From positions 62,001 through 126,000 of the forward strand of contig JAPLFH010000009.1 of NCBI GenBank assembly GCA_026390815.1: a stretch of 64,000 nucleotides of DNA. Direction: 5' to 3'. Below are positions 986-42,868 of this stretch, piece by piece; within the stretch, counting starts at the first letter, position 1; every line of letters begins with the position of its first letter. The position numbers were made by a program, and so were the translations under genes. The notes under the pieces are model-generated. The model saw nothing but the letters and a program-made list of their open reading frames with translations, made no database searches and was not told the DNA's origin. This DNA comes from Ignavibacteriales bacterium. GTDB taxonomy: Bacteria; Bacteroidota; Ignavibacteria; Ignavibacteriales; SURF-24.

Positions 986-1666
986 TTATTTCACCAATAC
1001 CTTCATCATTTCTAAGGCAACAAATTTATTTCCATCTGCGCTTAAATGTACACCATCGTAAGTAAGTATTCCTTCATGAAGCTGCTTTGGATTGTGAATT
1101 ACTTCGTATTGAATAAATTCTTCTCTAAGATCGCATAAAGTTGTGTTGGTTTCTTTAGCTACTTTTCTGCTAATGTCAGAATATTCATTTAGCATTTTAT
1201 CCAGCTTATTTAAGCTGTCCGATCTTTCTCCAACAACACTTGGAGTGCATAAAATAACTCTTGCACCATTCTCGATTATTTTGCTAATTAAAAATTTCAA
1301 TCCTTCTTCATATTTATCTTTTGTTGTTCCGCCAATCCCCAGATCGAAATGCCAAACATCATTTATACCGATATAAATAAAAACAATTGTTGGTTTCTTA
1401 GAAAGAACATCTTTACCTAATCGTGCAATTAAATCTGTTACCTTATTTCCGCTAATACCGGCGCCTATAATCTCAATTCCTAATTCCTTGTATTTAAAAG
1501 CAATTGAATCGCGAATGATGGTAATGTAACCTCCGGGATTGACACCAAGCTGAGTAATCGAATCGCCAAAGAAAATTATTCTATCATTTTTTTTAAGTGA
1601 AATTGAAAATGCAGCCATTGTAAAAAGTAAAATGATGATTGATAAGATGAGTTTTTTTAATTTCAT
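986..1666 (-). CDS. secreted SGNH/GDSL hydrolase
   Basis: A single-domain SGNH hydrolase of 226 aa, probably a periplasmic or exported esterase acting on an acyl or acetyl ester. A hydrophobic signal segment (KKLILSIIILLFTMAAFS) leads into block I, FFGDSIT, with the catalytic Ser near residue 36. The block II-like GISGNKV, block III GINDVW and the C-terminal DGVHLSADGN with the Asp/His pair are all present. The frame extends upstream to a GTG at 1729, but the ATG at 1666 is preferred because it puts the signal peptide at the terminus. No substrate can be read from the context. A YhcH-like sugar protein lies upstream on the same strand, so sugar-ester deacetylation is possible but unproven. 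Confidence 0.85.
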   Translation of the reverse strand: MKLKKLILSIIILLFTMAAFSISLKKNDRIIFFGDSITQLGVNPGGYITIIRDSIAFKYKELGIEIIGAGISGNKVTDLIARLGKDVLSKKPTIVFIYIGINDVWHFDLGIGGTTKDKYEEGLKFLISKIIENGARVILCTPSVVGERSDSLNKLDKMLNEYSDISRKVAKETNTTLCDLREEFIQYEVIHNPKQLHEGILTYDGVHLSADGNKFVALEMMKVLVK

Positions 1667-20354: not shown

Positions 20355-20457
20355 TTACAGTATATAAACTGTAAAACTCATTGTCGGGGCGAGTGTCCCG
20401 ACTTAGTCGGGAGAACCACCGACTTTCCCGATTTCTGATCGGGATGCTCTAACCGGA
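20355..20457 (-). pseudogene. tRNA-Pro relic A, with two TCCCGA palindromes, followed by a relic GIY-YIG start
   Basis: Compared with tRNA-Pro at 20700-20774, this copy keeps part of the D arm (gctctaaccgga on the plus strand), the T-stem and the acceptor 3' side. Two hairpins are exchanged. The anticodon arm is replaced by TCCCGAT-TTCTG-ATCGGGA (20426-20444). Five or so bases of the T-loop are replaced by TCCCGAC-TTA-GTCGGGA (20396-20412). Beyond the acceptor end, 25 bp (20371-20395) are identical to 20687-20711, including the start of the GIY-YIG gene. That start reads MSFTVYIL and then stops (20381 down to 20355). The stop codon of the real GIY-YIG gene lies in the D-arm part of this relic. 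It cannot be a working tRNA. Confidence 0.85.
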
Positions 20458-20697
20458 TTTAATTATTTTTTCAATGAACAATTTACTTTTTGAACTCTTA
20501 AGTTTCCTTTCAAACTTCATAGCTTCTGACCTTGTGGTGAATTCTTTAGAATAAACTACTGTCCAGGGTTTTCCAGTTTTAGTGAAATTGGAATAACCTG
20601 AATTATGATCATTGATTCTTCTCTCCAGGTTATTTGTTTGTCCAATATAATATTTATCAACTGATGAGCTGTGAAGTATGTAAACCGTAAAACTCAT
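20449..20697 (-). CDS. small GIY-YIG nuclease (URI family) directly abutting tRNA-Pro
   Basis: A single GIY-YIG domain of 82 aa: VYILHSSSVDKYYIGQTNNLERRI carries the VYI/YIG pair and the catalytic Arg, and FTTRSEAMKFERKLKSSKS carries the catalytic Glu. The domain is that of UvrC and of homing endonucleases; the role of such stand-alone URI-type proteins is largely unknown. The ATG is only two bases after the tRNA-Pro discriminator base and has no ribosome site of its own. The stop codon lies in a degraded tRNA-Pro copy. The frame is open upstream through the tRNA (reading ...RDQEVGGSNPLAPT), but that part is the tRNA itself, not protein. Confidence 0.8.
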   Translation of the reverse strand: MSFTVYILHSSSVDKYYIGQTNNLERRINDHNSGYSNFTKTGKPWTVVYSKEFTTRSEAMKFERKLKSSKSKLFIEKIIKSG

Positions 20698-20699
20698 TG

Positions 20700-20774
20700 T
20701 CGGGGCGAGTGGATTCGAACCACCGACCTCCTGGTCCCGAACCAGGCGCTCTAACCGGACTGAGCCACGCCCCG
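20700..20774 (-). tRNA. tRNA-Pro (anticodon CGG)
   Basis: Complete cloverleaf on the minus strand: acceptor CGGGGCG/CGCCCCG, D arm GCTC...GAGC, anticodon stem CCTGG/CCAGG with loop TTCGGGA (anticodon CGG), variable AGGTC, and T arm GGTGG-TTCGAAT-CCACT. The discriminator is A. The next bases are CA and then ATG, so the CCA end is not encoded. Damaged partial copies lie on both sides. Confidence 0.95.
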
Positions 20775-20816
20775 AAAATAAAGAATATATTTTCAATCGA
20801 TAAAAGTTAAAAACTA

Positions 20817-20889
20817 TCGAACCACCGACTTTCCTGATTTCTGATCGGGACGCTCTAACCGGACTGAGCCACGCCCCGAAAATAAAGAA
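20817..20889 (-). pseudogene. tRNA-Pro relic B with TCCTGAT...ATCGGGA palindrome in place of the anticodon arm
   Basis: The 39 bp at 20851-20889 equal 20747-20785 (D arm, acceptor 5' side and 5' flank of the real tRNA), and tcgaaccaccgac at 20817-20829 equals 20715-20727. Between these identical flanks the 17-bp anticodon arm is replaced by TCCTGAT-TTCTG-ATCGGGA (20832-20850), which has the same loop as in relic A. The T arm is cut off in mid-loop, so the relic has no acceptor 3' side. Confidence 0.85.
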
Positions 20890-21070
20890 CATATTCTTAA
20901 AAAATTGTTTAAGAAAAATAAAAACTGATCGAAATATATTAAGTTTATTTATCAATGAGAAATCTTAACGCGGATATTTCTAGAATTTAATCTTGGATAT
21001 TTAAGTCTAAATTTATATCTTGCGTAAAGTTTTTCTCAGTTAATTATTTGTTAATCGAACTAGGGTTTTG

Positions 21071-42694: not shown

Positions 42695-42767
<73 letters not shown>

Positions 42768-42811
42768 CAAAATCAAAATAGAAAAAGAATTTTATTTTCA
42801 GCAAAGAAGAA

Positions 42812-42868
42812 GCGTCCCGATAGCAATCGGGAAGGTCAGGAGTTCGATCCTCCTTAGCTCCACAAAAT
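42812..42868 (+). pseudogene. tRNA-Ala relic with TCCCGAT-AGCA-ATCGGGA in place of the anticodon arm
   Basis: The 36 bp at 42833-42868 (variable loop, T arm, acceptor 3' side and 3' flank) are identical to 42738-42773 of the real tRNA-Ala. Directly before them, where the 17-nt anticodon arm should be, stands the 18-nt palindrome TCCCGATAGCAATCGGGA (42815-42832). Before that only gcg of the D-arm end remains. It is not a functional tRNA. Confidence 0.9.

Follow-up and report, generated by a model that had tools for sequence, protein, structure and literature searches.

Why should a palindrome stand where a tRNA gene has its anticodon arm? The question is raised by a short locus in a window of 64,000 nucleotides, the whole stretch of DNA analysed here (Ignavibacteriales bacterium, GCA_026390815.1, contig JAPLFH010000009.1, positions 62,001–126,000 of the forward strand). 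The locus holds an intact tRNA-Pro (CGG) gene on the minus strand (20699–20774; ARAGORN; Rfam tRNA, 67.5 bits) and two partial copies of it, also on the minus strand. Relic A (20383–20457) is a 3' copy that retains tRNA positions 16–27, 48–58 and 64–76 and is broken by two palindromes. Relic B (20817–20879), upstream of the intact gene, is a 5' copy that ends in the T-loop (GGTTCGA). The original prediction was that in both relics a 19-bp palindrome had taken the place of the 17-nt anticodon arm, and alignment confirms it. With the exchanged segments in brackets, the minus strand reads AGAGCG[CCTGGTTCGGGACCAGG]AGGTCGGTGGTTCGA in the tRNA-Pro, AGAGCG[TCCCGATCAGAAATCAGGA]AAGTCGGTGGTTCGA in relic B and AGAGCA[TCCCGATCAGAAATCGGGA]AAGTCGGTGGTTC[TCCCGACTAAGTCGGGA]CACTCGCCCC in relic A. 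In both relics the match to the tRNA extends up to where the anticodon arm starts, gives way to TCCCGATCAGAAATC(G/A)GGA in place of CCTGGTTCGGGACCAGG, and then resumes. The palindrome is perfect in relic A (TCCCGATTTCTGATCGGGA, 20426–20444); that of relic B (TCCTGATTTCTGATCGGGA, 20832–20850) has one stem mismatch and is otherwise the same. One palindrome is thus common to both relics, which do not count as independent cases. The second palindrome predicted for the T-loop of relic A is also present (TCCCGACTTAGTCGGGA, 20396–20412), where TCCCGACTAAGTCGGGA substitutes for five T-loop bases, the 5 nt of tRNA lost there.

What had been overlooked is a gene that separates the intact tRNA-Pro from relic A. 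This is a GIY-YIG endonuclease ORF of 82 amino acids (20449–20697, minus strand), identified by its sequence, its conserved catalytic residues and a Pfam match (PF01541, 8.3e-19). Its ATG lies 1–3 nt past the 3' end of the tRNA-Pro, and its TAG stop codon is part of the D-loop of relic A. Directly after relic A comes the beginning of another, truncated GIY-YIG ORF (20358–20381, minus strand; ATGAGTTTTACAGTTTATATACTG, compared with ATGAGTTTTACGGTTTACATACTT at the start of the intact ORF), which by its sequence is a remnant of a tandem unit. The order at the locus is, then, relic B, intact tRNA-Pro, nuclease, relic A and truncated nuclease. A mechanically called ORF (20449–20955, minus strand) passes in one frame across relic B and the tRNA-Pro into the nuclease; annotation is likely to list this 168-residue artefact as a protein.

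The genome has four short GIY-YIG genes, and the same architecture is seen at each: an intact tRNA or tmRNA on one side, a partial copy on the other. Between the intact and partial tRNA copies there is no site-specific integrase, only the GIY-YIG ORF. Like a free-standing GIY-YIG homing endonuclease, the protein has a GIY-YIG catalytic domain with its active-site residues: Y6, Y17, R27, H31 and E63 are kept in 68–69 of 69 proteins, and purifying selection acts on the ORF. The closest solved sequences are UPF0213 (1ywl, 1zg2) and SLX1 GIY-YIG proteins, neither of which, to our knowledge, is known as a neighbour of tRNA genes with relics. A group I intron carrying a homing gene was considered and rejected, as the intact tRNA is uninterrupted and about 300 bp leaves no space for an intron core.

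Is the exchange peculiar to tRNA-Pro? In this genome, the anticodon arm has been exchanged in relics of tRNA-Pro, tRNA-Ala, tRNA-Pro-TGG, tRNA-Asp (two tandem copies) and tRNA-Gly, the last carrying TCCCGCAATTCAGCGGGA as its exchanged arm. In addition, one tmRNA relic has an insert in its T-loop, and a relic of tRNA-Leu contains another palindrome. Further species are exchanged in this genome or its relatives (Thr, Cys, Asn, Ser, Leu, Arg, Glu and tmRNA). The expectation that several independent tRNAs would show the exchange is therefore borne out by Pro, Ala, Asp and Gly within one genome, and the palindromes are not scattered at random through intergenic DNA but placed at arm positions across several independent tRNAs. 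The Ala case is in the window itself and was absent from the original list. Downstream of an intact tRNA-Ala (GGC) (42695–42768, plus strand; ARAGORN) is a 3' relic (42811–42864, plus strand) in which TCCCGATAGCAATCGGGA (42815–42832) stands for the anticodon arm and is followed by 31 nt identical to the tRNA. This second instance of arm exchange in the window (42695–42864) has no ORF. Elsewhere, a pseudo-tRNA truncated after the T-arm (L068 1535–1600; G000:C15:102142–102198), with GTTCGTTCGCAACGAAC as its anticodon arm, lies 5' of an unrelated ORF, and no intact parent was seen nearby.

Pattern searches supplied the genome-wide palindrome counts. TCCCGA-N2-8-TCGGGA matches three times in the window, against 0.00 expected from 100 shuffles, and at 15 places in the 4.52-Mb genome, where the reversed control pattern has none. 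The looser TCCCG-N3-12-CGGGA was inspected at 47 places, of which 18 are in long open frames and several are terminator-like, so some occurrences are unrelated to tRNA relics. Across the order, up to 59 of the 164 genomes have a palindrome followed by a T-arm, a count that is partly noise because matches such as L106, L108 and L109 are ordinary sequence. The reversed pattern matched once there against about 95 times; with the controls in the window and the genome, this rules out chance palindromes. A sample across the phylum gave 69 of 393 genomes.

The nuclease profile matches in 77 of the 85 near-complete genomes of the order, with up to 18 copies that are often in tandem. Cultured Roseivirga and Marivirga arenosa (a complete genome) have the tRNA, nuclease and relic architecture. 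An artefact of metagenome-bin assembly was also considered and is ruled out by the single-contig genomes G035, G043, G048 and G130 together with these isolates. Tandem arrays take several forms: nuclease-plus-relic units with a 315-bp period (L203), nuclease units with a 450-bp period (G048 C1:120135–122165), and relics alone with a 114-bp period (G043 C1:2631742–2632115).

A set unbiased with respect to palindromes was obtained by picking loci through the nuclease (140 ORFs in 94 loci). Here 104 of the 140 GIY-YIG ORFs have a partial tRNA or tmRNA copy within 260 bp. Among the distinct relics, 90 in number, 78 are interrupted, and a palindrome marks the break in most of the relics that chaining missed. 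Among the 89 inserts of at least 10 nt, 94% have a stem of at least 4 bp, and the mean perfect stem is 6.1 bp, versus 3.5 in shuffles. They fall in the T-arm (33), the anticodon arm (25) and the D-arm (20). Each tRNA species has its own characteristic insert place and length (Cys 38/57, Pro 28/46, Asp 51/60), and the letters vary with pairing retained. In Cys, CCCGCC/GGCGGG has become CCCGGC/GCCGGG, and in Asn, TCCGTC/GACGGA has become TCCGGC/GCCGGA, both compensatory changes. The claim that an arm is replaced rather than interrupted holds for relics A and B; it does not hold for many relics elsewhere, which are zero-loss insertions at a loop apex. The zero-loss T-loop inserts use the junction GTTC|GA in 18 of 20 cases, and T-loop inserts are frequently two successive 11-nt mini-hairpins. 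Outside the inserts the relics are 98.7% identical to the tRNA. The tRNA-Ser-GCT relics of L174, L176, L196, L211 and L214 have branched double-hairpin inserts of about 55 nt, in the anticodon or T-loop, with ends that are alike (TCCG..CGAGAT..) and arms that differ.

The history of individual loci bears on whether the units move. At the Tyr-Gly-Thr-Trp-secE-nusG locus, which is conserved, the Gly–Thr spacer of this genome is 334 bp and contains a cassette; in most relatives, two of them from the same family, it is 5–65 bp, and the tRNA-Gly is identical. The site of tRNA-Pro beside yajQ is empty in one genome of the same family (L256) and occupied in two from another genus. Occupied and empty alleles of one locus, as a homing endonuclease would leave, are thus found at both Gly–Thr and Pro–yajQ; by themselves they do not prove transfer. 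The nuclease tree tracks tRNA identity (16 label changes versus 41.4 when shuffled, 0/200). Together, the empty sites and this tree point to small homing-like cassettes, although vertical inheritance with loss would also yield both. Where tRNAs vary between genomes, the relic has the base of its own neighbour in 1452 of 1495 comparisons, which means that relics are copied anew from the local tRNA gene or converted by it. When 5' and 3' relics occur together they have one palindrome sequence in common (with one base different here), and this differs between genomes.

The explanation we favour, at roughly even chances of being right, is that the relics are parts of small tRNA-anchored nuclease cassettes, in which the palindrome would disable the leftover tRNA fragment. 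The unit observed is about 300 bp long and has an intact tRNA, an abutting short GIY-YIG ORF and then a relic of that tRNA; the order can also be the reverse (5' relic, ORF, intact tRNA). The cassette would probably spread by nuclease-induced recombination into tRNA genes. The break would fall in the anticodon loop or the T-loop, the same loops that serve integrative elements as crossover sites, and one complete tRNA would be rebuilt, so that the host retains a working gene. The leftover fragment keeps segments of homology, with a palindrome replacing or interrupting one stem-loop at a set place. This would most likely take the nuclease site out of the fragment. It would also leave the repeat in pieces of some 20 bp, below what efficient deletion of the cassette may need. 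In relics with palindromes, the longest tract shared with the intact gene is 19.5 bp at the median, against a span of 40, and this is near or below the minimum length for RecA recombination.

Several observations fit this cassette explanation less well. Self-cleavage is unaccounted for because the intact tRNA retains the whole presumed target. Some relics have no adjoining ORF (Asp twice and Ala in this genome, Thr twice in G017), so protection of a cassette from deletion is not the reason there. Any insert would disrupt homology or a cut site, and the palindromic form itself is therefore unaccounted for. Finally, TCCCG hairpins in RNase P RNA lie outside any tRNA–nuclease cassette and count against it.

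These last hairpins lead to the first alternative, a mini-palindrome mobile across the lineage, comparable to the double-hairpin elements of fungal mitochondria, that inserts into or replaces the stem-loops of structured RNAs, relics being permissive and functional RNAs accepting it in variable stems only. We regard this as possible and rather doubtful. In total, 28 RNase P RNA genes (11.5 kb) have 24 TCCCG stems and the 81 kb flanking them have none; no other stem of equal composition occurs more than 3 times, and across the order the hairpins occupy many different positions. The RNase P RNA of this genome (L011 1210–1649; G000:C33:189789–190228) has four TCCCG..CGGGA hairpins and still scores 245 bits. 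In relatives, functional tRNA-Ser and tRNA-Leu have variable arms of the TCCCG..CGGGA type (L121 1748–1834; L128, minus strand, 1411–1500; L103). The tmRNA hairpin TCCCGTAAAGCGGGA and terminator-like places, and the frequent pairing of mini-hairpins in T-loop inserts, also suit a mobile palindrome. Exchange of whole stem-loops thus extends beyond the relics, which fits the wider process of hairpin exchange in the original prediction. Neutral insertion, however, would explain neither the fixed position and length in each tRNA species, nor the 98.7% identity of the relics to the tRNA, nor why other palindrome types (CCTGCC.., TCCGT.., CCCGCC..) are bound to particular tRNAs. Because positions are fixed and the rest of the relic is nearly identical to the tRNA, a purely neutral spread is less likely. 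Nor is a free tiny palindrome, as first envisaged, supported as a full account, since the relics are mostly in a GIY-YIG cassette and palindrome position and length are specific to the tRNA species. Template switching, proposed with it, may be how the palindrome is made. Other bacterial palindromic repeats that spread, the Rickettsia palindromic elements and REP/RAYT repeats, are unlike the relic palindromes in being longer or having other signatures, and are not known to lie on tRNA arms.

A more speculative form of the cassette explanation, and an unlikely one, is a bacterial cleave-and-rescue system. The nuclease would attack loops of tRNA and tmRNA genes, hairpins formed in repair of the cut would scar the unselected copies, and the host would come to depend on the intact copy in the cassette; the same repair would reshape the variable stems of both RNase P RNA and class II tRNAs.

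It is improbable, in our judgement, that the palindrome is instead the target of the nuclease. Here an Slx1-like, structure-selective GIY-YIG enzyme would cut hairpin or cruciform DNA, and exchange would preserve a stem-loop at the place of the tRNA arm. The nearest solved relatives do include SLX1, a structure-specific endonuclease, beside UPF0213; the exchanged segment retains its stem through compensatory changes, and the tandem arrays suggest repeated breaks. Set against these are the relics that have no ORF and the agreement of the nuclease tree with tRNA identity, which may reflect specificity for a sequence or a locus.

A role at the level of RNA, in which the hairpin insulates the relic transcript from misfolding with the intact tRNA, seems very improbable from ViennaRNA models. 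Native pairing in the tRNA next to a relic is predicted to fall on average from 0.63 to 0.27 when the relic is uninterrupted, and to 0.35 when it has the palindrome (p = 0.011). A scrambled insert does equally well (0.348), which means that the hairpin itself contributes nothing in the model, and several cases run in the opposite direction. Least credible is a functional tRNA-like RNA with a new arm, the other reading in the original prediction: the relic segments are nearly identical to tRNA, but most relics are without one strand of the acceptor stem and many have single arm strands only.

To return to the tRNA-anchored cassette, its nuclease has its nearest experimental analogue in SegB of phages T4 and T6, which the accessible part of one report describes as a free-standing GIY-YIG homing endonuclease adjoining tRNA genes, with cutting of tRNA-containing DNA and tandem amplification by short-homology recombination (PMC13096335). 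Both are small free-standing GIY-YIG proteins beside a tRNA gene, and tandem arrays occur in both; SegB differs in being phage-borne, and that part of the report mentions for it no tRNA fragment in which a stem-loop has been exchanged (PMC13096335). Integrative elements in tRNA genes likewise have one complete and one partial tRNA copy at their flanks, in examples of about 9–23 kb (PMC9897764), in contrast to about 300 bp here, with an ORF of 80 codons for a GIY-YIG protein and a partial copy broken by a palindrome. The inserts themselves resemble mitochondrial double-hairpin, or repetitive hairpin-forming, elements, which are reported in the accessible part of PMC2800124 (citing Paquin et al. 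2000) from variable places in structured RNA genes, with no flanking duplications. As in those elements, one or two short hairpins with conserved stems and variable loops are found here in structured RNA genes. The mitochondrial elements are organellar, and the same part of that source links them to neither tRNA fragments nor a nuclease ORF and describes no replacement of an arm by a hairpin at a fixed tRNA position (PMC2800124).

In open-licence literature we found no description of GIY-YIG genes with tRNA fragments or in Bacteroidetes/Ignavibacteria, nor any of palindromes within the tRNA or RNase P genes of bacteria. The combination of cassette family and swapped hairpins looks to be undescribed in the open literature searched. 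The units form a widespread group of minimal nuclease cassettes tied to tRNA genes within a major bacterial phylum, and look to be selfish. The natural series of hairpin-for-hairpin exchanges makes the evolution of stem-loop replacement as units directly testable, and the cassettes would account for annotation errors such as false tRNA calls and nuclease ORFs that run into tRNA sequence.

Two further observations concern tRNA genes. Downstream of a tRNA-Ser in L100 (1490–1530) is a nested palindrome, CCACTATCCCGCAAACGGGACAAGTGG, and a similar array of many copies is found at G043 C1:2997910–3000172. In L098 and L099 (around 1475–1550, minus strand), an apparently functional tRNA-Ala(GGC) has TCCCG/CGGGA as its anticodon stem and a normal loop, ATGGCAT.
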